The notes: generated by a model not told the origin, from the sequence alone. DNA of 64,000 nt from Candidatus Tityobacter terrigena (GCA_003156715.1 PMHO01000018.1:1-64000), one strand, 5' to 3'. Positions 17,292 through 39,340 are shown, counted from the stretch's first letter. Numbers and translations are program-made.

Positions 17292-17362
17292 CGTGCGTCT
17301 CACTTTGTGCGCACAGTCTGAGACGTTTTGTCTCACTTAGCGTGCACGAAGTGGGACACACG
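17292..17362. other. Repeat-rich divergent gap, candidate oriT or operator
   Basis: Between the divergent relaxase and ParA operons, a roughly 23-base segment (17292-17314) is repeated in imperfect inverted form at 17342-17362. Inside it lies a perfect 6-base inverted repeat with a 5-base loop (TGAGAC at 17319-17324, GTCTCA at 17330-17335). GTCTCACTT occurs twice as a direct repeat. Nested inverted repeats beside a relaxase and a ribbon-helix-helix gene are the usual look of an origin of transfer. No nick site can be named from sequence. Confidence 0.5.
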
Positions 17363-17417
17363 ACTTTTTTAGAGGCGCTACACTGTCGGTACGACTCACA
17401 GACCATCGAGGTAACAA

Positions 17418-21131: not shown

Positions 21132-21633
21132 GAGGAACAGGTATACCGAAACGACGGCGTTGGCGCAGCCAAACCGTCTTCGCTTCCTCCTCGGACTGAC
21201 AGGTTCGGAGGTACCACGTCCAGTCTCGTTGCGAAACGGCATCATACTGAGCTTTGAATAGGCGCCGCGCTTCGATCTCGTCGGCCCGTTCATTCTCAGG
21301 GACGTAGAGAAAGTCGTCCCACGTTACGCGTACGAGACCGTCGTCGTTGTCGGCGGATGAGATCTCAATACAATCAAGGAGCGCAGCTAGGGCGTTCCAC
21401 GCATCATCCTTCTCGTTGATCGCGCGGTGCGCGTCCGCCAGACGATATCCGAGGCCGCGCATATCGCGGACCGAATTGGAGTGGGAACCTTGATTAGGCT
21501 CGATGGGCTGTTCGAGGTATAGCTTGACCGCCTCGTTGACCAGTGCCGTGATGCTCTTCTCGTCCTGACGAGCCCGTTCGCGCAGTTTCTTCGAGATATC
21601 GTCCGGGAAGCGGACCAAGATCGAATCGGCCAT
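21121..21633 (-). CDS. Ribbon-helix-helix protein with C-terminal domain
   Basis: A 170-residue protein. Residues about 5-45 are a ribbon-helix-helix: ILVRFPDDISKKLRERARQ, then KSITALVNEAVKLYL. The other 120 residues are acidic and unassigned. ATG 21631-21633 sits behind GAGGA, which is a better start than the TTG one codon upstream. A striking set of ATATAG half-sites lies 33 bases upstream (21666-21698), as expected for an autoregulated Arc/CopG-type repressor. It is convergent with the coupling-protein gene. Confidence 0.75.
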   Translation of the reverse strand: MADSILVRFPDDISKKLRERARQDEKSITALVNEAVKLYLEQPIEPNQGSHSNSVRDMRGLGYRLADAHRAINEKDDAWNALAALLDCIEISSADNDDGLVRVTWDDFLYVPENERADEIEARRLFKAQYDAVSQRDWTWYLRTCQSEEEAKTVWLRQRRRFGIPVPPSS

Positions 21634-21665
21634 CAAATCCTCGTAAACGGTAAGCGCCCGCTTGA

Positions 21666-21698
21666 CGATATAGTTTCTATATAGTACGCTCTATATCG
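21666..21698. promoter_or_regulatory. Operator-like array of ATATAG half-sites
   Basis: CGATATAG (21666-21673) and CTATATCG (21691-21698) form a perfect 8-base inverted repeat, and between them lies a self-palindromic CTATATAG (21677-21684). The array is just upstream of the ribbon-helix-helix gene on the minus strand. Evenly placed half-sites fit a ribbon-helix-helix repressor. CGCTCTATA inside the array also occurs at 13387-13395. Confidence 0.6.
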
Positions 21699-21869
21699 CC
21701 GCATTCGAGCCGATATCCTTGGTCTTGAAAAACTAAGCGGTCTGTAGGTTCCGGTGATCGAGAAGAAGGCCCCCACTTCCGAAGCCTCTTTGGGCTACGC
21801 GGTCCGAGATACCGCCTATTGCGTAGCCGCAACTGGCCATGCGAGCGCGCGGCACAGGTTCGTCGCCTG

Positions 21870-22265
21870 ATGCGCGCCTCGATTAGCCGCCTTTCGCGCG
21901 AAGATACACTTCGATACGCAGAACTCATCCGGACGTTTATGCGGGAATGCCATCTTTCCGGTTATTCGCTCTTCTTAGGAGCTGAATTTCCGCGAGCGAC
22001 CCTCATGCGCTGGTTGAACGGGGAATCGCGGATTCCGGTCGACGCGGCGCAGACGTTAGTCAGAAGCCTGACGAGCCACGCAGAAGAAATTTCGAAAAGT
22101 CCGGCACTTAAAGAGCTGCAGGCCTTACTCAATGCTCATCGCGTCCACGACGTTAGCGCATCGCGACTACATCTTGAACTGCGTGCTCGACGAATTCCGA
22201 TTCGGCGAACGCTTGAAGCGTTGCGCGCAGCAAACGTACTGCCTCCGGGGCCCAGCGTGGGTTGA
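21870..22265 (+). CDS. Unknown protein of the mobile element
   Basis: A 131-residue protein if translation starts at ATG 21870; an upstream start at 21819 is possible but adds an Arg-rich leader. It is predicted mostly helical, with YAELIRTFMRECHLSGYSLFLG and LMRWLNGESRIPVDAAQTLV suggesting an HTH-like or phage-regulator-like fold. I do not recognise the family. It is divergent from the ribbon-helix-helix gene, so the operator at 21666-21698 could also affect it. Confidence 0.5.
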   Translation: MRASISRLSREDTLRYAELIRTFMRECHLSGYSLFLGAEFPRATLMRWLNGESRIPVDAAQTLVRSLTSHAEEISKSPALKELQALLNAHRVHDVSASRLHLELRARRIPIRRTLEALRAANVLPPGPSVG

Positions 22266-22361
22266 TTGGGCTATGACTCTGCAGGTGAAGTTACCAAGCT
22301 GGCTTCGGTCGACATTTGCTCGGCAAGGCACATTCTCATCTAGACCGGTTAGGAGCTGATC

Positions 22362-23168
22362 ATGCCTCTACTGAACCCGGATTTCGATCCGGATTGGAAA
22401 GCAAGATTTGAGCGTGCGAAACGTCGAGTCGATGCGACGGGCAATCAAGAGCATCTTTCGGCAATGCATAACGCCTTTTGGTCTCGATATCGGACGATGG
22501 CGGAGATTCGAGACTTTCATTTCGATGCCGTGAGGCGGAAAGCGAATATATGGGATCTCGAAGTAACGATCCCGCACCTAGACGATGATTGCACTTGGGA
22601 TGATATAGCTCTCGTGTCCTCACACCTCGAGGATGCAATTAACGAGCATATCACGCAAGGGGGAAGACTTGGTCATCAGAACCCGGAGGGATTACACGCG
22701 TTTTTCCCCGACGACTCGGCGCAACGGTTCACTGAGTACTATCAATATACGGGCTTCTGGAATTTTCCGTCGGCGTGCTACATAACGACCGAATACCAGG
22801 AAAGCGCGGCCCACGTCTGCTTCACCCTCATACCCAATGCGGGAACCTCTCCCATCAACATGATTGTGGAGTTGGCAACCTCGATTTACCATGACAAGCT
22901 CGCTGGCCGCTACGATCCTGGAGAAGCGAAATGGTACACCTATTTCCGTTTCGCTGGGCCCGGGGGACACGAGGGATTCTGGCAGGCTGTTCTCAGCTGG
23001 GACAAACAACGTAAGAAATACACGAAGGTGGAATGGCTGCACTTCTCCTCTGTACCGGCCGTGATCGCCGAGAGCACTGAACTTGAAACGGATCCGCAGG
23101 AGCCCTTAGTTCGCCCTCGGGTGATTAGTGCGATTGACGATGAGGACGCCGGCGAGCGCGATGCGTAA
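22362..23168 (+). CDS. Unknown cargo protein
   Basis: A 268-residue soluble protein that starts at ATG 22362 behind TTAGGAGC. It is rich in aromatic and acidic residues (FTEYYQYTGFWNFPSACYITTEY, then KWYTYFRFAGPGGHEGFWQ) and has no signal peptide or membrane segment. I know of no matching family. The GC content is visibly lower than that of the chromosome genes to the right, consistent with recent acquisition. It lies between element regulators and the integrase module, a common place for cargo. Confidence 0.65.
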   Translation: MPLLNPDFDPDWKARFERAKRRVDATGNQEHLSAMHNAFWSRYRTMAEIRDFHFDAVRRKANIWDLEVTIPHLDDDCTWDDIALVSSHLEDAINEHITQGGRLGHQNPEGLHAFFPDDSAQRFTEYYQYTGFWNFPSACYITTEYQESAAHVCFTLIPNAGTSPINMIVELATSIYHDKLAGRYDPGEAKWYTYFRFAGPGGHEGFWQAVLSWDKQRKKYTKVEWLHFSSVPAVIAESTELETDPQEPLVRPRVISAIDDEDAGERDA

Positions 23169-23237
23169 GTTTCGAGAGGGCCAAGACCCGCTATCAACGC
23201 GAGCGTCGGCATTTTGCTCACGGAGGGCCTCGTTTTC

Positions 23238-23444
23238 ATGCAACTAGATCTCGCCGGCCAGAACAAGCTCACGCGTCAAGAGGCTGCCGCCAGACTTCGC
23301 GTACATACCGATACGCTTGATCGGTGGGCGGACGCCGGGCTCATCCGCCCGATGCGCTATCCGTCGCCAAATGGCGGGCGACCGACGATTCGATACACCG
23401 TCGGTGAAATCGACCGCTTTGAGCGAGAGGCGATGTCGCGCTGA
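23238..23444 (+). CDS. MerR-type helix-turn-helix protein (excisionase-like)
   Basis: A 68-residue protein starting at ATG 23238, with GGAGG about 10 bases upstream. KLTRQEAAARLRVHTDTLDRWADAGLIRP is a MerR/excisionase winged helix, followed by a short wing (GGRPTIRYT) and a final helix. There is no effector domain. Just upstream of the integrase, a protein of this size is most likely the recombination directionality factor, although a plain DNA-binding regulator cannot be excluded. Confidence 0.7.
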   Translation: MQLDLAGQNKLTRQEAAARLRVHTDTLDRWADAGLIRPMRYPSPNGGRPTIRYTVGEIDRFEREAMSR

Positions 23445-23498
23445 CCCCCTCCGGCAATTGGCGCCAATGTCGTAGCAATCAGAAACGAGAGTACCCAG

Positions 23499-24599
23499 AT
23501 GGCAGACCGTCGAGCAGACCGCGAAGGCTCAAAGCCCGTAAAACGGGCCAACGGACGATACCAGTGCGCTATTCAGGTGAATGGAACGCGGCGCTACTTT
23601 ACCGGGGCGACTGCCTCGATCGCTCGCGAGAAGATGAGGGCGTGGCTCCGGTCACCCGAAGCTGCCGATCCGACCAAGCTTGATGGGCATACGTGCGTTT
23701 CCGACCTCTTGGACTCATATGTGAAACGCATAGCGGAGTCTAGAGCGGACAAAACATATCGTAGCTATGAGAGCGTTGTTCGGCACCACATAAAGCCGCG
23801 CATCGGCCTCTTACATCCCGCCAAGGTTACGCCGAAACACATATCCGCGATGCTCGATGACATGCGAACCTCGCCCATCGCCATCAAAGGGAAGCCTAAG
23901 CACGGGCGGGCGAAGCGGCTGATTGGCGTGCGCACACGTGAGCTTGCCTATATCATCGTCGGCGCTGCGTTTAAAATAAGTTCTCCAGGCCTGCTTTCGG
24001 GTGTAGAAAAGCCAAAGTACAAGTCAGAGGAAATGCGTCCTTGGAAGGGCGACGAAGCGGCACGCTTCCTGGCGTGCGTCGACCGAGTAGGCGACGCGAA
24101 CCGTGCCCTCTACCGTGTCGCGCTTCGAACAGGGGCTCGCAAGGGAGAACTGCTTGCGTTGCGGGTCAACGATTTCGACGCGAAGGCGTGCAGCATCCGC
24201 ATTACAAAGAGTTACAACGAGAAATTGCGAGAAGATGGGCCCACCAAAACGCCATCTTCCCGACGAAGCATCGCTCTGTCGAGCGAGACGGTCGCTGCGA
24301 TAAAGAAGCACATTCTTGCGACGGGCGTGCGCAGCGACGATCGCCTCTTTCCAATTCACGACGTCCGGCAGCTCACCAAAGAGATGCAGCGTGCCATGCG
24401 GTCCGCCGGCGTTCCGGTCATTCGCTTCCACGACCTCCGGCACACCTTCGCAACGCTGGCACTTGCAGCGCGAGTCCCGTTCAAGGTGGTGTCGGAGATG
24501 CTTGGACACAAGAGCGTGAAGCTCACCCTTGATACCTACGCCCATACGCTGCCCGGCATGCACGAGTCCGCAGTTGAAGCGCTCGAGGCGGCGTTCTAA
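23499..24599 (+). CDS. int: Tyrosine recombinase / site-specific integrase
   Basis: A 366-residue integrase. An N-terminal arm-binding region (about 1-60) and a SAM-like core-binding domain (about 65-150) precede the catalytic domain. Catalytic residues visible: Arg in TGARKGELLAL, the HDLRH box (His and Arg), the GHKSVKLT His and the Tyr of LDTYAHT near residue 346. All are present, so it should be active. The integrase, with its small HTH partner upstream and a tRNA piece 1.1 kb downstream, marks the right end of the element. Confidence 0.93.
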   Translation: MADRRADREGSKPVKRANGRYQCAIQVNGTRRYFTGATASIAREKMRAWLRSPEAADPTKLDGHTCVSDLLDSYVKRIAESRADKTYRSYESVVRHHIKPRIGLLHPAKVTPKHISAMLDDMRTSPIAIKGKPKHGRAKRLIGVRTRELAYIIVGAAFKISSPGLLSGVEKPKYKSEEMRPWKGDEAARFLACVDRVGDANRALYRVALRTGARKGELLALRVNDFDAKACSIRITKSYNEKLREDGPTKTPSSRRSIALSSETVAAIKKHILATGVRSDDRLFPIHDVRQLTKEMQRAMRSAGVPVIRFHDLRHTFATLALAARVPFKVVSEMLGHKSVKLTLDTYAHTLPGMHESAVEALEAAF

Positions 24600-25541: not shown

Positions 25542-25659
25542 CAGCGTCGGATGCGTGCGGGTTTCTGCGGATATCGGGGTCGCGGGATGGGAGAAAAACG
25601 CCTTATTTCACAAGCAAGAGCCGACTCCAGCCTATTACTGCTCCCTTGAGCCCGCCAGC

Positions 25660-25714
25660 GAGCAGCTGACTGTTAATCAGCGGGTCGTTGGTTCGAGTCC
25701 AACTTCGGGAGCCA
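25660..25714 (+). tRNA. tRNA-Asn(GUU) 3' portion, probable right attachment site
   Basis: From the D-stem 3' strand onward this is a clean tRNA-Asn: anticodon stem GCTGA/TCAGC (25665-25669 / 25677-25681), loop CTGTTAA with anticodon GTT at 25672-25674, T-arm GTTGG-TTCGAGT-CCAAC, and a 3' end with CCA (25712-25714). The 5' half is wrong: the D-loop lacks the conserved GG, and only 4-5 of 7 acceptor pairs form if TCCCTTG at 25642 is used. The simplest reading is that integration left only the original 3' half here. The intact copy would be at the other end, outside the window. Confidence 0.7.
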
Positions 25715-27492: not shown

Positions 27493-27906
27493 TTACGGTT
27501 TTTGGATCGTCGCGGTATCAGTGCTCGCAACGGACGCGCTCAAGGGCCGCGAACCTGCTTTGTGGCCGTTTTTCTGCAGAATGTACGCGAGGATGCTGAG
27601 GTACTGCGCCTTCGAGAGCGTTCCTGGAGCCGTCATCGGCATCTGCTGTGAGATGTATTCGTACACTTCCGCGAGCGACTGCTGTGCGATCGCGCTCGTT
27701 CTGCCGACGAGAGCAGGCGCCGTAACACCCCCCAGATTTGCGCCGTGACATGAGGCGCAGTTTTTCGCGTACGTTTTCGCTCCAATTGCAGCCTGAGGCG
27801 CGGTAAATGCAATGGCATCACCTCCTGCGGCCGCGCGGGCGAAAGGCAAGAGCGTAGCCGACAGCGTCGTAGCAGCCAAGAAAATGCGTAAGGCAGCGAG
27901 CCTCAA
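27493..27906 (-). CDS. Small exported c-type cytochrome
   Basis: A 137-residue protein starting at TTG 27906 behind a strong AGGGAGGT (plus-strand 27912-27919). A signal peptide (about 26 residues ending FARAAA) precedes a single heme-binding CASCH (Cys50, Cys53, His54). A Met-rich stretch at 89-91 (MPM) supplies the likely axial ligand. The only heme protein next to a PQQ alcohol dehydrogenase on the same strand is its probable electron acceptor in the periplasm. Longer in-frame starts add an Arg/His-rich segment inside the dehydrogenase gene and are unlikely. Confidence 0.85.
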   Translation of the reverse strand: MRLAALRIFLAATTLSATLLPFARAAAGGDAIAFTAPQAAIGAKTYAKNCASCHGANLGGVTAPALVGRTSAIAQQSLAEVYEYISQQMPMTAPGTLSKAQYLSILAYILQKNGHKAGSRPLSASVASTDTATIQKP

Positions 27907-28031
27907 GACCGACCTCCCTAGGTGAAGGCTGAAAAGCGACGTAACCGGCAACGCACTTTCGTGAATTGCCGGTACGTCACTTGCGATGACCGTTGGCGAC
28001 CGCGATGAAGACGCGGTTCGGCACCAAGGAG

Positions 28032-29843
28032 TTAGTGCGTGGTGGTGGCCGCAGGCACGCCTGCAAACGATCTCGCCCGCATCGCGCCCGACGGCGCCAT
28101 GCCTGCACTCGAGCCGTTCAAGACCCATGTGTAGACCATCGAGCCTTTCGGAATGCCGGCTAGCCACGGCACGGAGGCGGCGAAGAACTTCGAGACGACG
28201 CCGCCGGTGCCCGAAGGGATCGAGACATACTGTTTGCCGCCTTCGGAATAGGTGATCGGCGACGCGTTGAGACCGCTGGCCGTCTTGGTCGACCAGACCG
28301 TGTCGCCGGTGGCCTCGTCGAGGGCGAGCAGCTTGCCTTCCGGGGTTCCGATGAACACGAGGCCGCCTGCGGTGATGAGGGCACCGTCGAGCATCGGAGA
28401 GCGGAAGCGTTTCTTCCAGACCTGCTTGCCGCTGGTGATGTCGATCGCCACAACGCTGCCGGAAAGAACCGCTTTCTTGAAGCCGGCGCCTCCGTTGAAG
28501 GTTGCCGGCTTCGGATTCATATCCGATTTCGGAAGGGGATCGATCTCGATCGAACCCTCGAGCAGCGGAATGACCATCAGATGCTTCTGCGGATCGTACG
28601 CGCTCGGCTCCCAGTTCTTGCCGCCGATAACGGAGGGGTAGAGCTCGTACGGCTTGCGCGCGTTCGCCGCGCTCTGGATGCTTTGATTCAAGGCGATCTT
28701 GCCGTCGCGCGTGACGGTGCCCCAGTTGATCTTGTCGAGCAGCGGCACGGCATAGATCAATTTGCCCGTCACGCGATTGATCACGTAGAGGTAACCGTTT
28801 CGATCGGCATGGGCGATCGCGGGAACCGTCGCGCCGTCGACGCTGGCGTCGACGAGAAGGGGTTCGCTGACGCTATCGAAGTCCCAGATATCGTGTGGCG
28901 TGAACTGGTAGAACCACTTCATCTTGCCGGTCTCCGGCGAAAGCGCAAGCACGGAGCTTGAATAGAGCAGCGTCCCTCTGAGGCTGTTAGCGTCCCAGTC
29001 CGGATTTGGGTTGCCCGTGCCCCAGTAGACGGTGTCGAGCTTCGGGTCGTACGTTCCCGGTAACCACGTCGGCGCGCCGCCGCGCGCCGCTACTCCGGGA
29101 ACTTTCCACGTGTCGTAACCAGGCTCGCCCGGGCCTGGAATCGTGAAGTGGCGCCAAATCTGCTTCCCGGTAGCGACGTCGTACGCGGCGATGAAGCCGC
29201 GAGTGGTGTACTCGCCGCCGCCGACACCGGTTAGGACCATATTTTTGACCGGCAGCGGCGGGCTCGTGATGTCGTAAGCACGGCTATTGGGCGCAACCGT
29301 CGTGTTCCACAGAACCTTGCCGGTCGCCGCGTCCAGCGCCACGAGGTGGGCGTCGAGGGTGCCGAAGATGACCTTGTTTCCACTGAGCGTAACGCCGCGG
29401 TTATCCGTATCGCAGCATGCCCGCGGCAATGATGTAGCCGGGAGCTGATACTTGTAAACCCACTTTTTCGCACCCGACGCGGCGTCGAATGCCCACACCG
29501 TCGAGTTACCAGTCGTCACGTACATCACGCCGTTGGAGACGACTGGCGTTGCCTCCATAGCGACGGGGGGCCCGAGCGTTTTCTTCCAAGCGAGGGTGAG
29601 CTTCGAAACCGAAGACTTATCGATGGCCTGAAGTGGACTGTAACGATTTGCACCGAGGTCCCGGCCGTACCAGAGCCACGAACTGCCGTCGTCGGAGCCG
29701 GCTCCCTCGAGTTGCTGAGATGAGACGCCCGGTGCCTCGTCCGCCGTCGCCGCGCGCATCACCGGCACCGATAGAAAAGCAAAGCCTGCGAGCGCGAGGA
29801 CGCACGCCTGAATTCTTGAGATCTGCAAGAAAAATCTCCCCAA
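28032..29843 (-). CDS. PQQ-dependent alcohol dehydrogenase, predicted lanthanide type
   Basis: A 603-residue periplasmic quinoprotein with a signal peptide and an eight-bladed propeller of W-motif blades (VLWNT, IWRHF, MKWFYQ, VWKKRF, TVWSTK). The vicinal disulfide is Cys143-Cys144. Metal and PQQ ligands visible are Glu in GGEYTTRG and Asn in WGTGNPNPDWD. The catalytic Asp321 (W320-D321-F322-D323) is followed two residues on by Asp323, the extra Asp that marks lanthanide-dependent XoxF/PedH enzymes; calcium enzymes have Ala or Ser there. It oxidises an alcohol, with electrons passing to the adjacent cytochrome c. Methanol specificity cannot be claimed. Confidence 0.9.
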   Translation of the reverse strand: MGRFFLQISRIQACVLALAGFAFLSVPVMRAATADEAPGVSSQQLEGAGSDDGSSWLWYGRDLGANRYSPLQAIDKSSVSKLTLAWKKTLGPPVAMEATPVVSNGVMYVTTGNSTVWAFDAASGAKKWVYKYQLPATSLPRACCDTDNRGVTLSGNKVIFGTLDAHLVALDAATGKVLWNTTVAPNSRAYDITSPPLPVKNMVLTGVGGGEYTTRGFIAAYDVATGKQIWRHFTIPGPGEPGYDTWKVPGVAARGGAPTWLPGTYDPKLDTVYWGTGNPNPDWDANSLRGTLLYSSSVLALSPETGKMKWFYQFTPHDIWDFDSVSEPLLVDASVDGATVPAIAHADRNGYLYVINRVTGKLIYAVPLLDKINWGTVTRDGKIALNQSIQSAANARKPYELYPSVIGGKNWEPSAYDPQKHLMVIPLLEGSIEIDPLPKSDMNPKPATFNGGAGFKKAVLSGSVVAIDITSGKQVWKKRFRSPMLDGALITAGGLVFIGTPEGKLLALDEATGDTVWSTKTASGLNASPITYSEGGKQYVSIPSGTGGVVSKFFAASVPWLAGIPKGSMVYTWVLNGSSAGMAPSGAMRARSFAGVPAATTTH

Positions 29844-30048
29844 ATGAGTGCATTGTGGCGATAAGTTTTCCCTCGGCAGGTTGCGAAGCAGAGACGCTCA
29901 TTTCCTGCGAAGATGCTCTGTCTTACCTGGTTCTGTCGCGCTACGGCTCAGCCGACCAAAAGCGGAAGTTGCTCGAGCCGCTGCTCGCGGGAGAGCTACG
30001 TTCGGCCTTCGTCGTACCGGGCAAGAACGCGCCGCGAGCGCGAGCGAA

Positions 30049-30825
30049 CTACATCGCTAGGAATGAAGCGCTCGGAGAAGCCGGATCGCTGAGCACGCGC
30101 CCGTAGAAGCCGCAAATGTGCGAGCGCAGAGCTTCCGCCGCGGCATCGCCTTGACTTGCCCGAATCTTTCCGGCGATCTCGAGGTGTTCGGTGGCCAGCA
30201 GTTCGCGTTCGGAGTCCCAATCCTCCAGTTTCGAGAAGGCAACGAGCATCACGCGCGCCATCGATTCTCGGATAGCTTCCATCAGTACCGGCGCAAGGGT
30301 GTTGCCGGAAACGCGAGCGATCGTCACGTGGAACTCGGTATCGGCCGCGAGGAACTGCTGGGCGTCGGTAATTCCCACCATCCTTTGGGCCGCCGCAAGC
30401 AGCTGGGCCTTTTGCTCCGGTGTCGCGCGCGTTGACGCCGAACGGCCTGAGAGCATCTCGAGCGCTACGCGGATCTCGAGCAGATCGGAGAACGGTATTC
30501 GCTGCAACGATGAGTACAGATCGAGCAGCGCGCTGAGACCGCTCGTTCCATCCGCGGATACGGTCCAGCCCGATTCGGGACCGGCCCCCCGCCGCGCCGA
30601 TAGGACACCGAAGGCCTCGAGCATGCGAAGCCCCTCTCGAACCGACTGACGACTTACGCCAAAGAGCTTCGCCAGCTCGCGCTCGTGGGGAAGCCGGTCC
30701 CCGATTGCGAGCCGGCCCTCGGCGACCGCTTGCTTCAGCTGTAAGATAACTTCCTCAAAGGCACGGCGGGGCCGGATCGGCGTTATCCCGGTTAGGCTGT
30801 TGGGCCTATGGTTCGACCTTTGCAC
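30049..30825 (-). CDS. FadR-type GntR family regulator (FCD domain)
   Basis: A 258-residue regulator. Residues about 15-85 hold a GntR winged helix (LPHERELAKLFGVSRQSVREGLRMLEAFG with the typical SRQSVREGL). The rest is an all-helical FCD ligand domain with Asp and His residues for metal or acid binding (ADTEFHVTIARVSGN, then HICGFYGR). The chosen GTG 30825 lies 7 bases after TATACT, so it may be leaderless; longer frames upstream are low-complexity. It is divergent from the 2-hydroxyacyl-CoA mutase-type operon, and a perfect consensus operator lies on that operon's promoter. Ligand is probably a hydroxy acid or acyl-CoA of that pathway (inference). Confidence 0.85.
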   Translation of the reverse strand: MQRSNHRPNSLTGITPIRPRRAFEEVILQLKQAVAEGRLAIGDRLPHERELAKLFGVSRQSVREGLRMLEAFGVLSARRGAGPESGWTVSADGTSGLSALLDLYSSLQRIPFSDLLEIRVALEMLSGRSASTRATPEQKAQLLAAAQRMVGITDAQQFLAADTEFHVTIARVSGNTLAPVLMEAIRESMARVMLVAFSKLEDWDSERELLATEHLEIAGKIRASQGDAAAEALRSHICGFYGRVLSDPASPSASFLAM

Positions 30826-30902: not shown

Positions 30903-30941
30903 TTGACAAGAGAAGCGTGGCTTGGTACATTGGTAGGACCA
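30903..30941 (+). promoter_or_regulatory. Promoter plus FadR-family operator of the mutase operon
   Basis: TTGACA (30903-30908) and TACATT (30926-30931) are spaced exactly 17 bases. TTGGT-AGG-ACCAA (30930-30942) is a perfect palindrome, and its inner 11 bases (30931-30941) match the FadR-subfamily consensus TNGTNNNACNA at every fixed position. It covers the end of the -10 box and the expected transcription start. The GntR regulator transcribed away from here is the obvious repressor. Confidence 0.75.
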
Positions 30942-31091
30942 ACGGACCTAGCCAGGGCGCAGCCCTGTCCTGGGCTTTCTCCCGGCCTGGCGCTCGTTCG
31001 ACGTCGTCTGTCGGACCAGGCGCGGCGCAGCAGCCGGGCCGCCAATAATGCACGGCCTTTTCTCACCCGGTTCACAAGTCTGGAGAGAAGC

Positions 31092-31499
31092 GTGGCTCAA
31101 CCAATTCGGGTACTGGTCGCAAAAGTTGGCCTGGATGGCCACGATCGCGGGGCACGGGTCGTCGCTCGAACGCTGCGCGACGCCGGGATGGACGTGATCT
31201 ACTCGGGTCTTCATCGAACGCCCGAAGAAGTCGTCAACGCCGCCGTCCAGGAGGACGTCGACGTGCTCGGCGTCAGTTTGCTCTCGGGCGTGCAGATGAC
31301 GGTCTTTCCGAAGATCTTCAAGCTGTTGGGTGAGAAGGGCGTCAAAGACATGATCGTCGTCGCGGGCGGGGTCATGCCCGACGAAGACGTGGCGGCACTC
31401 AAAGAAATGGGCGTGCACGAAGTGATGCTTCAGGATACGCCGCCCGCCCAGATCGTGGCGACGCTGACGAAACTGGTGAGAGAACGTGGCGAGCGCTGA
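31092..31499 (+). CDS. hcmB: B12-binding small subunit of acyl-CoA mutase (2-hydroxyisobutyryl-CoA mutase type)
   Basis: A 135-residue protein starting at GTG 31092 behind GGAG. It is a stand-alone cobalamin-binding domain: AKVGLDGHDRGARVVARTL contains the DxHxxG motif whose His replaces dimethylbenzimidazole as the lower cobalt ligand, followed by GVSLLSG and VVAGGVMPDED. Methylmalonyl-, isobutyryl- and 2-hydroxyisobutyryl-CoA mutases with split subunits have a protein of just this size. The partner large subunit at 33908 carries the residues of the 2-hydroxyisobutyryl type. A leader of about 150 bases precedes it; I do not see a cobalamin riboswitch in it. Confidence 0.88.
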   Translation: MAQPIRVLVAKVGLDGHDRGARVVARTLRDAGMDVIYSGLHRTPEEVVNAAVQEDVDVLGVSLLSGVQMTVFPKIFKLLGEKGVKDMIVVAGGVMPDEDVAALKEMGVHEVMLQDTPPAQIVATLTKLVRERGER

Positions 31500-32940
31500 T
31501 CCGATCGCGCAGCCGATGGAGCTCTGGTCGTTTCCGGCTGCTTACGACAACGACTATTTTCCGCCCGAGGGGAGCCGCTACTGGTTTCCCAGGCGCGAGA
31601 CGATGCCGCCGGTGGAGCGCGAAGCGGCAATCTTGCAGCGGCTCCAGGTCGTTTGCCGCTACGCTTACGAGAACGCGCCGTTTTACCGGCGCAAGTGGAG
31701 CGCAGCGGGCTTTCATCCCGACCAGCTGCGCTCGCTGGAGGATTTCGAAGACAAGGTTCCCGTGATCACCAAGAAAGACTTGCGGGAGTCTCAAGCAGCG
31801 TCCCCGCCTTTCGGCGACTATCTTTGCATCCCGGATAGCGAGATCTTTCACGTTCACGGAACGAGCGGCACGACCGGCCGCCCGACCGCGTTCGCGGTCG
31901 GGCGCGGCGACTGGAAGGCGATCGCCAACGCTCACGCTCGAATCATGTGGGCGATGGGAATGCGGCCGGGCGACATGATCTGCTACGCCGCGATATTTAG
32001 CCTCTATCTGGGAAGCTGGGGCGGCCTCGCGGGCGCGGAACGGCTCCACGCCAAGGCGTTTCCATTCGGCGCAGGTGCGCCCGGGATGACGGCGCGTTGC
32101 GCACAGTGGCTACACGCCATGCGCCCCGCAGGCTTCTACGGCACGCCGACCTTCGCCATCCATCTCGCGCAAACGGCATTGAGCGAGGGGCTCGATCCGC
32201 GCGATTTCGGCCTGAAGTACATGTACTTTTCCGGCGAGCCGGGCGCTTCGATCCCAGGCGTGCGCAATAGGATCGAGCAGTTCTACGGGGCCAAAGTATT
32301 CGATTCCGGTTCGATGGCCGAGATGACGCCGTGGATGAACGTCGCCGGGTCGGCGCAGACGGACGGGATGTTGTGCTGGCAGGATATCGTTTATACGGAG
32401 GTCTGCGACCCAGCGTCGATGCGGCGCGTCTCGTACGGACGGCGCGGAACGCCGGTCTACACGCATCTCGAGCGCACCTCGCAGCCGATGATCCGTCTCG
32501 CATCGGGCGATTTGACGGTGTGGGTCGACGAGCCGAATCCGTGCGGACGAACCTATCCGCGTTTGCCGCAGGGTATCTTCGGCCGGATCGACGACATGTT
32601 TACGATCCGCGGCGAAAACGTCTACCCGAGCGAAATCGATGCCGCGTTGAACGAGACGGCGGGTTATGGAGGCGAGCACCGGATCGTCATCACTCGAGAG
32701 GGTGCGATGGACGAACTCCTGCTGCGGGTCGAGTGCGACTTCGAGGGGCCGGAAATGCGGGAGGACTTCCGGCAAGACGTTTCCCGCCGCATCCACAAGA
32801 TGCTCGGCCTGCGAACCAAAGCGGAAGTCGTGGCGGCGGGTACCTTACCGCGCACGGATTTCAAAGCCCGCCGAGTGATCGACGACCGCGACGTTTTCCG
32901 TGACATGAACGCGCAGATCGAGGCGGAGCGAGTCCAATGA
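31486..32940 (+). CDS. hcl: Acyl-CoA ligase, PaaK-like (candidate 2-hydroxyisobutyrate-CoA ligase)
   Basis: A 484-residue AMP-forming CoA ligase that starts at GTG 31486, overlapping the hcmB end by 14 bases. Seen: an N-terminal RYAYENAPFYRRKW as in phenylacetate-CoA ligases, the P-loop HGTSGTTGRPT near 125, YFSGEPGAS, GSMAEMTPW, the ATP-binding GRIDDMFTIRGENVYPSEID near 365-385, and a small C-terminal domain ending in TLPRTDFKARRV with the catalytic Lys. Known hcm clusters contain a ligase that activates 2-hydroxyisobutyrate, which fits its position between the two mutase subunits. A phenylacetate-type substrate cannot be excluded on sequence alone. Confidence 0.8.
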   Translation: MASADPIAQPMELWSFPAAYDNDYFPPEGSRYWFPRRETMPPVEREAAILQRLQVVCRYAYENAPFYRRKWSAAGFHPDQLRSLEDFEDKVPVITKKDLRESQAASPPFGDYLCIPDSEIFHVHGTSGTTGRPTAFAVGRGDWKAIANAHARIMWAMGMRPGDMICYAAIFSLYLGSWGGLAGAERLHAKAFPFGAGAPGMTARCAQWLHAMRPAGFYGTPTFAIHLAQTALSEGLDPRDFGLKYMYFSGEPGASIPGVRNRIEQFYGAKVFDSGSMAEMTPWMNVAGSAQTDGMLCWQDIVYTEVCDPASMRRVSYGRRGTPVYTHLERTSQPMIRLASGDLTVWVDEPNPCGRTYPRLPQGIFGRIDDMFTIRGENVYPSEIDAALNETAGYGGEHRIVITREGAMDELLLRVECDFEGPEMREDFRQDVSRRIHKMLGLRTKAEVVAAGTLPRTDFKARRVIDDRDVFRDMNAQIEAERVQ

Positions 32941-33911
32941 GCCGATACGTCCCGTCGCGCGAGCTGGTCGAACGGGTCGCGAACGGTGAGATTCCCGCGA
33001 TTGCCCGAATGATTTCGCGCGCCGAAGCGGGCCTGCCGGAAGCGCGCGAGGCTCTCGCCGAAATCTATCAGCGGGCCGGTCGCGCCCATGTCATCGGGCT
33101 CACCGGCGTGCCGGGCAGCGGCAAGTCGACCATGGTCTGCGCGCTTGCAGCCCGTTTACGCGCCGGCGGTTCAAAGGTCGGTATCGTCGCAGTCGACCCT
33201 TCGAGCCCGTATTCGGGCGGTTCGATCCTCGGCGACCGGATCCGCATGACCGATCTGAGCGGCGATCCGGGCGTCTACATTCGCAGTATGGCGACGCGCG
33301 GCGTCATGGGCGGCATGGCGCGCGCAACGATGGACGCCGTCGACATTCTCGACGTCGCCGGCTTCGAAACGGTCATCATCGAGACGGTCGGCGTCGGTCA
33401 GGACGAAGTTGAGATTGCCAAGGCGGCCGACACGACCGTGGTGGTTTCGGCGCCTGGTCTGGGGGACGAGATTCAGGCGATCAAAGCCGGCATGCTCGAA
33501 ATCGCCGACGTGCACGTCGTGTCCAAGTGCGATCGCAGCGATGCTCAGCGCACGTTGATGGACCTCAAGGGGATGTTGACCCTCGGCGTAAGGCAAGGCA
33601 AGAATTCGGAGTGGCGCGTCCCGGTCGTCGGCGTCAGCTCGTACGACGGGTCCGGCTTCGAGGAGCTGATGAGCGCGCTAGAACGGCATCGCAACGTCGC
33701 CCTGCACACCGAGAGCGGGCGCGAGCGCAGGGTCGCCATCGCCGGATTTCGTTTAACGAAAACTGCGGAGAATCTACTGATGGAACGCTTTGCAAGGGCT
33801 TGCGCACCGTTGACGCTCGGCTTTGCCCAACGGCTGCACCGCCACGATGGCGACCCATACTCGCTCGCGGGCGAACTCGTCGCCGCTTCATTCGGAAAGG
33901 AACGATCATGA
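32937..33911 (+). CDS. meaB: MeaB/ArgK-type G3E GTPase, mutase chaperone
   Basis: A 324-residue GTPase: Walker A GVPGSGKS near residue 60, DPSSPYSGGSILGDRIRM (the MeaB signature), ETVGVGQDEVEIA as Walker B/switch, and SKCD replacing the usual NKxD base-recognition motif. MeaB-type proteins load adenosylcobalamin into acyl-CoA mutases and protect them from inactivation. ATGA overlaps at both ends (32937-32940 and 33908-33911) tie it to the ligase and the mutase large subunit; hcm clusters have such a GTPase (MeaH). Confidence 0.9.
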   Translation: MSRYVPSRELVERVANGEIPAIARMISRAEAGLPEAREALAEIYQRAGRAHVIGLTGVPGSGKSTMVCALAARLRAGGSKVGIVAVDPSSPYSGGSILGDRIRMTDLSGDPGVYIRSMATRGVMGGMARATMDAVDILDVAGFETVIIETVGVGQDEVEIAKAADTTVVVSAPGLGDEIQAIKAGMLEIADVHVVSKCDRSDAQRTLMDLKGMLTLGVRQGKNSEWRVPVVGVSSYDGSGFEELMSALERHRNVALHTESGRERRVAIAGFRLTKTAENLLMERFARACAPLTLGFAQRLHRHDGDPYSLAGELVAASFGKERS

Positions 33912-35614
33912 GAGACACCGTTGAGAGAAACGTTCTCGACGCAAAAGCCATCGAAGATTTGCGCGAGCAAGAGCGTGACTGGGAAGCCACCGAGGTCGCG
34001 CAGTTCCTTCAGAAGCAGGCGGAACGCAAGCCTGGTTTCCTGACCTTGGGCGACTTCCCGGTCAAACGCACGTACACGGCCGCCGACCTCGTCGAGACTC
34101 CAATCGAGGATATCGGTCTGCCCGGGCGCTACCCGTTCACGCGCGGCCCGTACCCGACGATGTATCGTTCGCGCAACTGGACGATGCGTCAGATCGCCGG
34201 TTTCGGCACGGGCGAGGACACGAACAAGCGCTTCAAATTCTTGATCTCCCAGGGCCAGACCGGTATATCGACGGATTTCGACATGCCGACGCTGATGGGC
34301 TACGACTCCGACCACCCGATGAGCGAGGGTGAAGTCGGCCGCGAAGGCGTTGCGATCGACACGCTCGCCGACATGGAGGCGCTCTTCGAGGGCATCGATC
34401 TGGAGCAGATCTCTGTGTCGATGACGATCAATCCGTCGGCCTGGATTCTGCTGGCGATGTACGTCGTGCTGGCACAGCAGCGGGGCTACGATCTGCACAA
34501 GCTCTCCGGCACGATCCAAGCGGACATTCTCAAAGAGTACATGGCGCAGAAGGAATATATTTTCCCGATCGAGCCTTCCGTTCGAATCGTTCGCGACTGC
34601 ATCACGTATTGCGCGAAGAAGATGAAGCGCTACAATCCGATCAACATCTCGGGGTATCACATCTCCGAGGCGGGATCCTCCCCGCTTCAAGAGGCGGCCT
34701 TTACCCTGGCCAACCTGATCGTCTACGTCGAGGAGGTGCTCAAGACCGGCATGCAGGTCGACGAGTTCGCCCCGCGGCTCGCTTTCTTTTTCGTATGTCA
34801 GGCCGATTTTTTCGAAGAGATCGCAAAGTTCCGCGCTCTGCGCCGCTGCTATGCGAAGCTCATGCGCGAGCGCTTCGGAGCCAAGAACCCCGAATCGATG
34901 CGGTTGCGCTTCCACTGCCAGACCGCGGCGGCGTCGCTGACCAAGCCCCAGTACATGGTCAACGTCATGCGGACGACCTTGCAGGCGCTTGCGGCCGTCC
35001 TCGGCGGCTGCCAGTCACTGCACACCAACGGCTACGACGAGGCGTTCGCCATCCCGACCGAGGACGCGATGCGCCTGGCACTACGGACCCAACAGGTTAT
35101 CGCCGAGGAAAGCAACGTCACGCAAACGACCGATCCTCTGGGCGGCTCGTACTATGTCGAGGCGCTAACGACGGACTACGAGAAACGCATCTTCGAGATT
35201 CTCAAAGACGTCGATGAGCGCGGCGGCACGATCAAGCTGATCAAAGAGGGCTGGTTTCAACAGCAGGTTGCCGACTTCGCTTACGAGACGGCGCTGCGCA
35301 AGCAGTCCGGGGAAAAGCCGGTGATCGGCGTCAACACGATGGTCGACGATACCCCAGATCCGAAGATCGAGACGCATCCCTACGACCAAACGACCGCCGA
35401 ACGCCAGGTCGCGCGCACGCAGCGGGTACGTCGCGAGCGCGACGCCGCCACGTTCGATCGGCTCATGCAGCAACTGCTCGTCGTTGCGAAGGACGAGTCC
35501 CAGAACATCATGCCCATCACGATCGAACTCGTGCGGGCGGGTGCGACGATGGGCGACATCATCGAGACGCTGAAAACTCTTTGGGGCACGTATCGCGAGA
35601 CGCCGGTATACTAG
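33908..35614 (+). CDS. hcmA: Acyl-CoA mutase large subunit, 2-hydroxyisobutyryl-CoA mutase type
   Basis: A 568-residue catalytic TIM-barrel subunit without its own B12 domain. Family motifs: RGPYPTMYRSRNWTMRQIAGFG, DMPTLMGYDSDHP, SGYHISEAGS (His251) and RFHCQTA. Substrate residues: Ile96 (RQIAGF) stands where methylmalonyl-CoA mutase has Tyr89 and isobutyryl-CoA mutase Phe. Asp123 (STDFD), 27 residues on, matches HcmA Asp117. Gln214 (YMAQKEY) replaces the carboxylate-binding Arg207. Together these mark 2-hydroxyisobutyryl-CoA / 3-hydroxybutyryl-CoA interconversion, not methylmalonyl-CoA. ATG 33908 overlaps the GTPase stop. Numbering comparisons are from memory of the family. Confidence 0.88.
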   Translation: MRDTVERNVLDAKAIEDLREQERDWEATEVAQFLQKQAERKPGFLTLGDFPVKRTYTAADLVETPIEDIGLPGRYPFTRGPYPTMYRSRNWTMRQIAGFGTGEDTNKRFKFLISQGQTGISTDFDMPTLMGYDSDHPMSEGEVGREGVAIDTLADMEALFEGIDLEQISVSMTINPSAWILLAMYVVLAQQRGYDLHKLSGTIQADILKEYMAQKEYIFPIEPSVRIVRDCITYCAKKMKRYNPINISGYHISEAGSSPLQEAAFTLANLIVYVEEVLKTGMQVDEFAPRLAFFFVCQADFFEEIAKFRALRRCYAKLMRERFGAKNPESMRLRFHCQTAAASLTKPQYMVNVMRTTLQALAAVLGGCQSLHTNGYDEAFAIPTEDAMRLALRTQQVIAEESNVTQTTDPLGGSYYVEALTTDYEKRIFEILKDVDERGGTIKLIKEGWFQQQVADFAYETALRKQSGEKPVIGVNTMVDDTPDPKIETHPYDQTTAERQVARTQRVRRERDAATFDRLMQQLLVVAKDESQNIMPITIELVRAGATMGDIIETLKTLWGTYRETPVY

Positions 35615-36720
35615 TGGCCGCCTTGGCGCACGGGCAAGCGGGCTCCGGATGTGAATTCGGACCGGCGCAGCGCCGGGGGGACCTGCGAATGGCGCGCCGC
35701 GCCGGCGTCGCCCGGATCACGCTCGACCGGCCGGCCAAGCTCAACGCGCTCACTCCCCAAATGGTCCGCGACATGCGCTCCGTCCTGGACGAGGGGGAGC
35801 GCGATGCGACCCTTCGGCTCGTACTGATCGACGGCGCCGGGCCGCGCGGATTCTGTGCCGGCGGCGACGTCAAGTTCGTTCGTGACAGCGCTCTTGCGGA
35901 CGATGGACAGGCGCAGATCTTCTGGGCCGATGAGTACCGGCTGGATGCGAAGATCGCCGGATTCGGCAAGCCGATCGTGGCCTTCATGACCGGCATCGTC
36001 ATGGGTGGAGGCGTCGGCCTTTCGGCCCACACGCGCCACCGGATCGTCACGGCATCGACGCGATTCGCGATGCCCGAGGCCGGCATCGGGCTGATCCCGG
36101 ATGTCGGAAGCACCTGGCTGTTTGCGCGCGCGCCGGGCGAAGCCGGCACGTATCTCGCGCTCACCGGAAGGCATGTCGGCGCTGCCGATGCGATCGCGTT
36201 GGGATTCGCGGATCGTTTCGTTGCGGAAGAAGGCTTGGAAGCGCTGAAGGCAGCGCTCGTGCAGGATTCCCCGCGCGGCGACGATGACGTGCGTGCGGTC
36301 GTCGAGCGTTTCGCGTTGCCGCCCGGCGAGCCGCTCCTCTCCGCGCAGCGATCGCTCATCGATCGAGCCTTCGCGTACGATACGGTCGAGGAGATCCTCT
36401 GTGCACTCGGCAGGGACGGGTCCGGATTCGCGCTAGCGACCGCGCGCGAAATTGCTGCAAAATCACCCACGAGTCTGAAATTGACGTTGCGCGCGCTACG
36501 TGAAGCGCGAAGCCTCGACGGCTTGCAGGACTGCCTGCGGCTCGAATACCGGCTGGTGTGCCGCTTGCTTGGGGGACACGACTTTCTCGAAGGCATTCGG
36601 GCTGCGGTCATCGACAAGGATCGTCGCCCGAAATGGCGTCCGAGCGACCTCGGCGACGTCTCGCCGCCCGGCCTCGACGGCTACTTCGCTTCATTAGGAA
36701 CGAAGGAACTGCAGTTCTGA
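35614..36720 (+). CDS. 3-hydroxyisobutyryl-CoA hydrolase-like enoyl-CoA hydratase superfamily protein
   Basis: A 368-residue crotonase-fold protein beginning at GTG 35614, sharing one base with the mutase stop. ITLDRPAKLNAL, GFCAGGDVKFV (oxyanion hole), VMGGGVGLSAHTRH and MPEAGIGLIPDVGSTW are the pattern of 3-hydroxyisobutyryl-CoA hydrolase (HIBCH), including the Glu of MPEAG and the Asp of PDVG. That enzyme belongs to valine breakdown. Beside a 2-hydroxyisobutyryl-CoA mutase it may instead hydrolyse a related hydroxyacyl-CoA. It is the last gene of the operon. Confidence 0.8.
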   Translation: MAALAHGQAGSGCEFGPAQRRGDLRMARRAGVARITLDRPAKLNALTPQMVRDMRSVLDEGERDATLRLVLIDGAGPRGFCAGGDVKFVRDSALADDGQAQIFWADEYRLDAKIAGFGKPIVAFMTGIVMGGGVGLSAHTRHRIVTASTRFAMPEAGIGLIPDVGSTWLFARAPGEAGTYLALTGRHVGAADAIALGFADRFVAEEGLEALKAALVQDSPRGDDDVRAVVERFALPPGEPLLSAQRSLIDRAFAYDTVEEILCALGRDGSGFALATAREIAAKSPTSLKLTLRALREARSLDGLQDCLRLEYRLVCRLLGGHDFLEGIRAAVIDKDRRPKWRPSDLGDVSPPGLDGYFASLGTKELQF

Positions 36721-36759: not shown

Positions 36760-38262
36760 TTATCGCACGCGGCTTGCGCTTCGTAGCGACGCCACTTCGG
36801 CAGCGAGGGCGTCGAGGCGTTTTTCGAGCGACGCGATGTCGGCGTGACGTGCGGCAAGCGCGCGCCGCTGCTCGTTCTGCGCGCGCGTCACAAGGCCGAG
36901 CGCCTTGCGAAGTGCGGCGTTCTCGCGGCGCTCGACGCGATACAATCCCTGAATTGCGGCAAGCGAGACGCCGTCGGCGTCGACCGCCGTGATGTGCCGG
37001 TCGTCCTCGCCGACGCCGAATGCGGCGAAGAAGTCCTGTGCCATCGGACCGACATGACGTACGCCGCCCTCGCTCTTGTAGCTCCATTCGCTGAGCGGCA
37101 GCGTCGCGAGCTTCGCCAGCATTCGCTCTCCGTCGAGCGGAGAGATGGCCGTCTTGAGCGCGCGGTCGCTGAGTGAGGCCCACGAGCCGCCGCCGGCGGC
37201 GAGCGTGACGCCCGTCGCGAGCGCCGCATCGGTGTAGAAGGTAACCCCGCCCGATGAACGCACCAAGAATTGGTTGGGAGCAGCGGAGCTGAGCTGCTTT
37301 GCACCGCCGGCGTCGTCACTCCACACGAAATCGCCATCGCCGGCAGCCTCCGAACGCGTGCCGGCGGCGAAACTATCGTTCCCGGCGGCGAGGTTTCCGC
37401 TACCCCCCGGGATCGCCGCGCCTCGCCCGCTAACGACGTTGCCATTACCGCCCGCGACGACGCCATACGCGGCCGACTCGGCATTGTTCTTCCCCCCGCC
37501 GACGAACCCGTAGTCGCCGGAGGCGGCATTGCCTTGACCTCCGACGACCGCGCCATATTGCCCCGCCTTCTTGTTTGAAAAATTACCGACGGTATTACCT
37601 GAGCCGCTGCCGACGAAAGAGTAGTTGCTCGTGACGAAGTTGGTGTCGCCGCTGCCGACGAATGAATCGTCGCCCGATACGTTCGCATTGCTGCCTGCTC
37701 CGGCGAATGAAGCCGTACCTGAGACCGAACTGCTCCCACCCCCGCCAATGAAGGAGCCTTCGCCCGAGACGGTGTTGTCGCCGCCGGTGCCGACGAACCC
37801 GTAATCCCCGGTCACGACGTTGTCGGCGCCGGAACCGACGAAGCCGAGGCTGGCTGCGATCGTATTACCGATGCCGGCTGCGATAAACGACGACTCCGCC
37901 TTTGCGCTATCGACGCGGTCCTTGAAAATCAGGTTACCCGTTCCGCCACCGATGACGGCGTCAAGGTCGCATGCGCGATTGGGTCCCGCAGGCGCCACCG
38001 AGACGGACCCGCCGCTAAGCACGCCGGAGTCCGTGCCACCCGCAACGTTGCCGCTGCCGCCGGGTGTGACGCCTCCGGACCCATTGGTCGTGCAGAGGCC
38101 GGATTTTCCGGGGCGCGCCGCTCGCGCCGCCGGACGCACGGCTTGAGCCGGCGCGAGTCGATGGCCCAAAGCGATCGTCGGCTCAACTGATGATGCTGTT
38201 AGTGCGCTCGCAGCCAGGATTAGACCGAGCCCGCTCAGCCGGCGGGCGGAACGAATCAACAT
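36760..38262 (-). CDS. Secreted head-repeat protein with C-terminal S74 chaperone domain
   Basis: A 500-residue protein starting at ATG 38262 behind AGGAGG. A signal peptide is followed by about 20 repeats of the form G-x-x-N-x-V-x-G-x-x-S-F-V-G (YadA-head/left-handed beta-roll style) at residues about 85-310. Then comes an intramolecular chaperone (peptidase S74) domain with SDRALKTAISPLDG near 360, whose Ser and Lys are the self-cleavage pair, and a final coiled coil. S74 domains trimerise beta-structured fibres and then cut themselves off. This suggests a trimeric surface or appendage fibre. On the same strand as the next repeat protein. Confidence 0.8.
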   Translation of the reverse strand: MLIRSARRLSGLGLILAASALTASSVEPTIALGHRLAPAQAVRPAARAARPGKSGLCTTNGSGGVTPGGSGNVAGGTDSGVLSGGSVSVAPAGPNRACDLDAVIGGGTGNLIFKDRVDSAKAESSFIAAGIGNTIAASLGFVGSGADNVVTGDYGFVGTGGDNTVSGEGSFIGGGGSSSVSGTASFAGAGSNANVSGDDSFVGSGDTNFVTSNYSFVGSGSGNTVGNFSNKKAGQYGAVVGGQGNAASGDYGFVGGGKNNAESAAYGVVAGGNGNVVSGRGAAIPGGSGNLAAGNDSFAAGTRSEAAGDGDFVWSDDAGGAKQLSSAAPNQFLVRSSGGVTFYTDAALATGVTLAAGGGSWASLSDRALKTAISPLDGERMLAKLATLPLSEWSYKSEGGVRHVGPMAQDFFAAFGVGEDDRHITAVDADGVSLAAIQGLYRVERRENAALRKALGLVTRAQNEQRRALAARHADIASLEKRLDALAAEVASLRSASRVR

Positions 38263-38347
38263 CTCATCCTCCTTTGGAACGCAGCCTTGACGCTTGCGGA
38301 CAAACACTACGCGGAATCCCAGAGGTGCTTGCGACTCTCGCGGCGCG

Positions 38348-39340
38348 TCAGCGCGCGGGGCGCGAGACTGCCGGCAATCGCCGCAGCGCGGGCGCCGGCG
38401 GCAGCCGGTCGTTGTCGGCGTCGAGCGGACGCGCGACGATGCGATAGTCGAACGAAAACGTCGAGCGCCCGCCTTGCGCTTCGCGCACCTGGAAGCCGGC
38501 GGGTGTCTTCTGGCTGACGTAAAGGCCGCGCGTGTCCGCCATCGGCGTTAGGAAAACGTAATAGCGGCTGGTCCGATCGATGGTCGATGCGAACGCGCGG
38601 TCGAGCGCCACGTTGGCAATGCCTGCGACGAGGCGCGCCGTTCCGACGTCGTCGAGCGTTGCCGATGCCGACTCGGCCGCATAGGCGAGAATCTGCCGGC
38701 CGCTGCGGTCCACGTGCCGCGTGCGAACGTTCTTGACGACGGCACCCCCCGTGCATGCGAGTTCCGCATTATAATCGATCGTGCACAGACCATCGGTCTG
38801 AGCGTTGAACCCCTCAAAGATGTACGTGTTGGAGCTGTCAGCTTTTGCCTCGAGCGCCTCATAGAGGTTGGTGGTATCGGCCGACTCCGCGTATACCCCG
38901 TCGCCGCTACCGCTCGACGTGCCCGGCTGGATACCCGCGACGCCCGAGCCTCCCGACGCGGTCGAATGACCTTCGACGCCGTTGTTGCTCGATGAGGTTC
39001 CGTATACGCCCTGACCGTTCGAAGACCGGCCGTAGACGCCGTGCCCCTGGCCCGTCGTCGCGGTGCTGATGCCGGACGTGCCGGAGTTTCCGTTGGTCGC
39101 GCTCGACACGCCCTGCACGGCGGTTCCGGCCGCCGAGAGGCCGTACACACCAAAGGGGGCTCCCGCGGTGGAGTCGCCCTCCAGGCACGCCGTGCCGGTG
39201 CTGCAGCTAAAGATCTTGCTCTTGGCTGGCTTGGCGTGCTCTGCCCGCACGGAGCTATAGCTGGAGATCGCGATGGCTATACCGGCTGCAAGCATAGCCG
39301 CGACCGCCGGACGGTTCGATCGAAAGATACCGTAAAGCAT
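38348..39340 (-). CDS. Secreted GVYG-repeat protein
   Basis: A 330-residue protein with a Sec signal (PAVAAMLAAGIAIAISSYSSVRA). Residues about 60-150 contain repeats of the type G-x-G-V-Y-G-x-S (GVYGLS, GVYGRS, GVYGTS, GVEGHS, GVAGI, GVYAES). After these comes a beta-rich C-terminal domain of about 150 residues (STIDRTSRYYVFLTPMAD). Such repeats stack into beta-solenoid or fibre-like structures. It lies 85 bases upstream of the S74 protein on the same strand, so the two may form one surface structure. Start ATG 39340. Confidence 0.65.
   Translation of the reverse strand: MLYGIFRSNRPAVAAMLAAGIAIAISSYSSVRAEHAKPAKSKIFSCSTGTACLEGDSTAGAPFGVYGLSAAGTAVQGVSSATNGNSGTSGISTATTGQGHGVYGRSSNGQGVYGTSSSNNGVEGHSTASGGSGVAGIQPGTSSGSGDGVYAESADTTNLYEALEAKADSSNTYIFEGFNAQTDGLCTIDYNAELACTGGAVVKNVRTRHVDRSGRQILAYAAESASATLDDVGTARLVAGIANVALDRAFASTIDRTSRYYVFLTPMADTRGLYVSQKTPAGFQVREAQGGRSTFSFDYRIVARPLDADNDRLPPAPALRRLPAVSRPAR

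Follow-up and report, generated by a model that had tools for sequence, protein, structure and literature searches.

A 2-hydroxyisobutyryl-CoA mutase operon of probable alphaproteobacterial origin in a Vulcanimicrobiota genome

We describe here five co-directional genes at positions 31092-36720 (plus strand) of a 64,000-nucleotide stretch of DNA from Candidatus Tityobacter terrigena (GCA_003156715.1 PMHO01000018.1:1-64000; the whole stretch is called the window). In all likelihood, these genes constitute an Aquincola-type 2-hydroxyisobutyryl-CoA mutase (HCM) operon that a Vulcanimicrobiota bacterium acquired from an alphaproteobacterium-like donor, and that would convert 2-hydroxyisobutyrate into (S)-3-hydroxybutyryl-CoA. 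Only a handful of bacterial HCMs have been characterised, and no natural source of 2-hydroxyisobutyrate has been established (PMC7176365); Vulcanimicrobiota is a little-studied phylum, found here to carry a complete HCM module.

Identity of the operon and its mutase

The first gene, hcmB (31092-31499), encodes a B12-binding small subunit with the base-off motif GLDGHDRG and best matches the HcmB chain of the crystallised Aquincola enzyme (4r3u_C, 214 bits; next match 130). It is followed by hcl (31486-32940, GTG start), whose product, a 2-hydroxyisobutyrate-CoA ligase (HCL), scores 833 bits against the solved HCL 6hdw and 225 against phenylacetate-CoA ligase (PaaK), then by meaH (32937-33911), encoding a MeaB-type GTPase chaperone of the mutase (TIGR00750, 295 bits, cut-off 241), and by hcmA (33908-35614), encoding the catalytic large subunit. 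The fifth gene (35614-36720) codes for a crotonase-family protein of the 3-hydroxyisobutyryl-CoA hydrolase (HIBCH) type (NF004127, 402 bits, cut-off 274); it lies within the range covered by a preliminary description of this DNA but was not mentioned there. The genes overlap by 14 nt (hcmB/hcl), by ATGA (hcl/meaH and meaH/hcmA) and by TAGTG (the TAG stop of hcmA and the GTG start of the hydrolase gene), as in an operon. The order of the first four genes and the ATGA overlaps given in that description are thus as we find them, and its view that this is the set known around HCM agrees with the order hcmB-hcl-meaH-hcmA being found again in about 25 further loci, most of them from Alpha- and Betaproteobacteria. 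The four cluster genes and a neighbouring GntR gene have been described before (PMC7176365).

The large and small subunits are encoded separately, each best matching solved HcmA and HcmB, respectively. HcmA is 80% identical to its Aquincola counterpart (4r3u_A, 1039 bits) and scores 452 bits against human methylmalonyl-CoA mutase (MCM). Aligned with Propionibacterium MCM, Ile96, Asp123 and Gln214 stand at positions 89, 116 and 207, so that Ile and Gln replace Tyr89 and the carboxylate-binding Arg207 of MCM; the spacings of 27 and 118 residues are correct, and the preliminary description had placed these residues properly. Ile96 and Asp123 also coincide with positions 101 and 128 of 4r3u chain A, which are Ile90 and Asp117 of HcmA (an 11-residue offset) and which we take to be its specificity signature. 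Isobutyryl-CoA mutase (ICM) has Phe and Ala at the first two positions of this triad, where the window enzyme has Ile and Asp.

To place this triad in context, we read it at window columns 96/123/214 in the mutases of all loci fetched, which span many phyla. HCM sequences carry IDQ, the isobutyryl type FAQ (presumably the mark of ICM) and the methylmalonyl type YAR. Every mutase at least about 53% identical to window HcmA has IDQ and every one below has FAQ or YAR; IDQ is shared by all sequences of the HcmA clade and of the clade sister to it, and by none of the remaining mutases sampled. Furthermore, 48 of 53 IDQ loci have an hcl gene within 8 kb, vs none of 47 FAQ/YAR loci; of the five IDQ loci without one nearby, three are interrupted by a contig or stretch end. 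This confirms that the triad in the window is not due to chance, since it tracks both clade and hcl linkage.

As the preliminary description had anticipated, automated annotation would call this enzyme MCM: NCBIfam assigns hcmA to TIGR00641, "methylmalonyl-CoA mutase N-terminal domain" (671 bits, cut-off 304), the sole family name above cut-off, and no HCM-specific NCBIfam model fired. The probability that it is an ordinary MCM or ICM is nevertheless negligible, both identities being ruled out by the residues, the scores, the HCL linkage and a 67-row tree in which window HcmA falls in the HcmA clade, outside MCM and ICM. The window genome moreover holds a separate YAR and a separate FAQ mutase. 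A predicted Aquincola-type HCM is the reading on which the residues, the scores, the identity of the ligase, the order of the genes and the tree all agree; neither result named in the preliminary description as refuting its reading, a tree position inside MCM or a mismatch of Ile96/Asp123 with HcmA Ile90/Asp117, was obtained. Databases therefore hide HCM under the MCM name, and a check of three residues separates the two.

The two additional mutases have neighbourhoods of their own. The YAR mutase (G000:C37:66379-67920; L004:11350-18881) is divergent and long-branched, and lies 2.4 kb past the window, close to biotin-carboxylase and carboxyltransferase genes. The FAQ large subunit, of the ICM type (contig C64, L005:7486-9333), has a 3-hydroxyacid-dehydrogenase-like gene and another pyrroloquinoline quinone (PQQ) dehydrogenase nearby.

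The window cluster resembles the HcmAB/HCL/MeaH cluster of Aquincola tertiaricarbonis (4r3u, 6hdw) in its four proteins, specificity residues and divergent GntR-type regulator; it differs in the host phylum, the hcmA-coupled HIBCH-type gene, an HcmA identity of about 80% and the presence in the genome of a lyase of the AcHACL type (see below). By contrast, RcmAB of Kyrpidia tusciae also isomerises 2-hydroxyisobutyryl-CoA but is described as only a distant relative of HcmAB, with a preference for the (R)-3-hydroxy isomer (PMC7176365). Given the 80% identity to HcmA, an R-specific, RcmAB-type window mutase is very unlikely.

Host, transfer and a second HCM lineage

The host draft genome (G000) comprises 3.95 Mb in 66 contigs, and no 16S gene was found in it. 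Its RpoB shares 88% identity with the counterpart in a Candidatus Eremiobacterota genome holding one of the related operons (L031) and 62-63% with proteobacterial and myxobacterial RpoB; a match of 73% to one Bacillota-labelled metagenome-assembled genome covers only part of the protein. By RpoB, the host is a member of Vulcanimicrobiota (Eremiobacterota). In the tree, on the other hand, window HcmA groups with those of G108, a genome of the same phylum (92% identical), and L031 (support 99/97), and this group is nested inside an alphaproteobacterial HcmA clade (100/97). This alphaproteobacterial type occurs in only three of 149 phylum genomes, namely these three. Because the host belongs to Vulcanimicrobiota while its HcmA sits among alphaproteobacterial ones, the operon was very probably acquired horizontally from an alphaproteobacterium-like donor. 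The earlier impression of a "non-proteobacterial-looking" genome thus holds for the host but not for the enzyme, and the surprise lies in a transfer rather than in an independent enzyme. The third-codon-position GC content of the operon (0.74-0.81) equals that of neighbouring genes (0.75-0.80), and therefore gives no compositional sign of recent transfer.

The nearest tree neighbours outside the phylum are the clusters of Methylobacterium, Bosea and Xanthobacteraceae (L006, L007, L008, L072), which share the gene order and an HcmA identity of 85-87%. Such identity would also be expected if the contig were a proteobacterial contaminant of a binned genome. We judge this very improbable: besides the RpoB result, the homogentisate dioxygenase encoded on the same 169-kb contig has 74-75% identical counterparts in two phylum genomes and no match in five HCM genomes of proteobacteria, HcmA forms its clade (99/97) with two other phylum genomes that have the linked hydrolase in common, and the operon matches its neighbours in third-position GC content. 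The clusters of these alphaproteobacteria also differ from the window in that they lack a coupled hydrolase (L072 has a convergent one, 42% identical) and in their less similar GntR protein.

IDQ mutases were found in 19 other phylum genomes (L105-L123, L134-L151); they are 53-58% identical to HcmA or, over one fragment, about 63-65%. All 18 full-length sequences fall into a single clade sister to all HcmA (100/100), and a constraint joining both phylum groups was rejected (approximately unbiased test, p 2e-60). Although these loci share the IDQ triad and the hcl, meaH and hcmB partners with the window, their order is hcmA-(meaH)-hcmB-hcl, often with an adjoining GntR gene, and they occur in three families of the class. 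This clade appears to represent a second, older HCM lineage native to the phylum, matching HCM in signature and linkage; the sister clade with its own gene order is new here. HCM homologues are sought as scaffolds for engineered CO2-fixing routes, and purification succeeded for only three of the six tried (PMC11599936); the native clade supplies new candidates for this use. That HCM is present twice in the phylum, and wherever the lyase described below occurs, is a wider finding beyond routine annotation. In the collection of papers searched, none mentions the phylum (as Eremiobacterota) together with 2-hydroxyisobutyrate.

An integrative or mobilisable element lies at 13582-24599 of the window and ends about 6.5 kb before hcmB; it encodes a relaxase-helicase, a ParA-like protein, a TraG-type coupling protein, a helix-turn-helix protein and a tyrosine recombinase. 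Just past the integrase, there is a marginal Rfam tRNA match (25640-25703, plus strand, 29.3 bits, E 0.05) that ARAGORN did not report; it might be what is left of a tRNA gene at an attachment site.

Proposed pathway and its branches

From these comparisons we infer the following course of catalysis, substrate and direction included. HCL would turn 2-hydroxyisobutyrate into its CoA ester. HcmAB with adenosylcobalamin, guarded by the MeaH GTPase, would then perform a radical 1,2-shift of the CoA-carboxyl group to give (S)-3-hydroxybutyryl-CoA for beta-oxidation, with Asp123 (Asp117 of HcmA) expected to fix the S stereochemistry. Genes for adenosylcobalamin supply (cobyric acid synthase, PduO-type adenosyltransferase, BluB) are present in the window genome.

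Several points weigh against this pathway. The HCM activity of the window enzymes is a prediction from comparison, and the genes beside the operon include no known source of 2-hydroxyisobutyrate. Beta-oxidation would have to share the product with the hydrolase. The G108 operon has lost hcl, so that its hcmB and meaH overlap each other (L132:1-4779), and no hcl was found elsewhere in this 79%-complete genome; the free acid may consequently not be the only entry.

The loss of hcl in G108 would also fit a related enzyme with a different main substrate, such as a C5 2-hydroxy-2-methylacyl-CoA, or pivalyl-CoA or isovaleryl-CoA. In work on HcmA mutants, HCM variants reportedly act on pivalyl-CoA, and AcHACL accepts 2-hydroxy-2-methylbutyryl-CoA too (PMC8760513). 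However, all members retain Asp123, whose HcmA counterpart binds the hydroxyl group, and the 80% identity to HcmA and the adjoining HCL-type ligase further make such a shift of substrate quite improbable.

The HIBCH-type protein scores 302 bits against 4hdt and keeps the catalytic MPE...PDVG motif (AMPEAGIGLIPDVG in the alignment). Its gene, translationally coupled to hcmA through the TAG/GTG overlap, directly follows hcmA in each of the three carriers of the acquired operon, where it is the sole copy in the genome, and was not found in four genomes of the native clade. Since the distal valine enzymes HIBADH and MMSDH have no match above curated cut-offs in the window genome, a valine-pathway role is not favoured. 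Instead, its substrate may be the product of HCM or a similar 3-hydroxyacyl-CoA, the protein probably stripping CoA from one such intermediate of the pathway.

We found that the window genome also encodes an AcHACL-type lyase, on contig C48 near cobalamin genes, which makes an acetone/formyl-CoA branch probable: 2-hydroxyisobutyryl-CoA would be cleaved to, or formed from, acetone and formyl-CoA. This lyase scores 595 bits against AcHACL (7pt1) vs 233 for the next best, and 779 against NF058623 (cut-off 600). It keeps L127, I492, E493 and the C-terminal lid, which are the short-chain determinants according to PMC8760513, plus E65. Against AcHACL, its homologues score 678 bits in G130 and 636 in G041 (next best 223 and 215). 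The gene separates hcmB from hcl in G130 and G137; in G041 it comes immediately behind hcl. Overall, these genes map to L142:12012-13757, L143:12652-14367, L149:11645-13360 and L164:9243-10991, in or beside native HCM operons and on contig C48. The lyase occurs in seven phylum genomes (G000, G108, G129, G041, G043, G130, G137; that of G129, a genome of the same family as G000, counted from two split matches), all seven among the 22 of 149 with an IDQ mutase, and was found nowhere else in the phylum. The chance of such an overlap is 6e-7 if genomes are independent; being related, they make this value a guide only.

The operon itself belongs to a known system, and the novel parts are the pairing of HCM with the lyase and the linked hydrolase. 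Tentatively, we propose that HCM and lyase make up one Vulcanimicrobiota pathway joining acetone plus formyl-CoA, 2-hydroxyisobutyryl-CoA and 3-hydroxybutyryl-CoA, which may have been assembled once around native HCM, with the lyase inside the operon of G130 and G137, and again around the acquired operon, with the lyase elsewhere in the genome and the 3-hydroxyacyl-CoA hydrolase as an added outlet. The HCM module, the native lineage and the confinement of the lyase to HCM genomes all suggest that HCM naturally serves the metabolism of branched short-chain acids or of ketones.

The pairing has relatives among known systems. The Actinomycetospora chiangmaiensis cluster of AcHACL and HCL, both of which the window genome also encodes, occurs without a mutase (PMC7176365), so that the co-occurrence of mutase and lyase is a real difference. 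The acetone cluster of Desulfosarcina cetonica and Desulfococcus biacutus, like the window genome, combines a thiamine diphosphate (ThDP) enzyme with a B12 mutase, proposed to assimilate acetone in these sulphate reducers (PMC7888143), and the lyase-plus-mutase logic therefore has a precedent; that mutase is RcmAB-like, the ThDP enzyme is no more than a distant relative of AcHACL (PMC7176365), and the hosts are anaerobic.

With the enzymes unchanged, the module might run as a route of acetone (short ketone) assimilation, in which the lyase joins acetone to formyl-CoA, HCM yields 3-hydroxybutyryl-CoA and HCL is secondary. Besides the sulphate-reducer proposal, the presence of an IDQ mutase in every phylum genome with the lyase, the lyase inside the G130 and G137 operons, the retention of lyase and mutase by G108 despite its lack of hcl and the reversibility of the lyase reaction (PMC8760513) are in line with this direction. 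We consider it unlikely, since 15 of the 22 HCM genomes show no such lyase whereas hcl is nearly always kept, no formyl-CoA source was identified, and the characterised AcHACL hosts employ the lyase for cleavage (PMC7176365). The G108 lyase cluster (L165:3368-14946) likewise looks catabolic, the lyase gene standing beside those of an acyl-CoA ligase other than HCL, a PQQ alcohol dehydrogenase and an aldehyde dehydrogenase. This set recalls the steps from diol to acid to CoA ester in known degraders of 2-methylpropane-1,2-diol, but the enzymes differ. PhaC and a major facilitator superfamily transporter are encoded in the cluster too.

Regulation and surrounding genes

A divergent gene for a GntR/FCD (FadR-type) regulator (30049-30825, minus strand; Pfam GntR 63.9 bits, FCD 71.8 bits) precedes the operon, and G108 has a 74% identical orthologue in the corresponding position; hcm clusters usually have a GntR gene next to them (PMC7176365). 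Between regulator and hcmB, we identified a probable sigma-70 promoter, TTGACA-17-TACATT (30903-30931, plus strand), with hexamers and spacing identical upstream of G108 hcmB. In both genomes it is directly followed by the palindrome TTGGT-N3-ACCAA (in the window TTGGT-AGG-ACCAA, 30930-30942, overlapping the -10 box; in G108 TTGGTTTGACCAA). Its core, TGGTNNNACCA, occurs only five times in the 768 kb compared, and this rarity, its retention in G108 and the adjoining FadR-type regulator make it a likely operator; no matching sequence was found in the Methylobacterium, Bosea and Xanthobacteraceae clusters. The regulator is a probable repressor that would keep the promoter off at this site until an inducer arrives. 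The window leader is about 120 nt longer than that of G108, and its 150 nt from operator to hcmB, examined for a B12 riboswitch, gave no Rfam match and no unusual fold.

Next to the GntR gene, a PQQ-dependent alcohol dehydrogenase and a c-type cytochrome are encoded at 27493-29843 (minus strand), a linkage to hcm that is not conserved elsewhere. As this dehydrogenase gene (28032-29828) has counterparts near none of 80 related mutase loci and its product shares only about 36% identity with the enzyme of the G108 lyase cluster, we rejected it as part of the module and take it as a mere neighbour. An open reading frame with a short acyl-CoA dehydrogenase-like stretch (SYLVLSRYGSADQKRKLLEPLLAGELRSAF; about 29870-30080, plus strand) is apparently a gene remnant. 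Directly 3' of the operon (36760-39340, minus strand) lie genes for two proteins that are repetitive and look secreted; one of them has a Peptidase_S74 chaperone end. Finally, an epoxide hydrolase with an EHN domain is encoded at 7535-8857, 22 kb from the operon; epoxide hydrolases are an enzyme type used in isobutene degradation.

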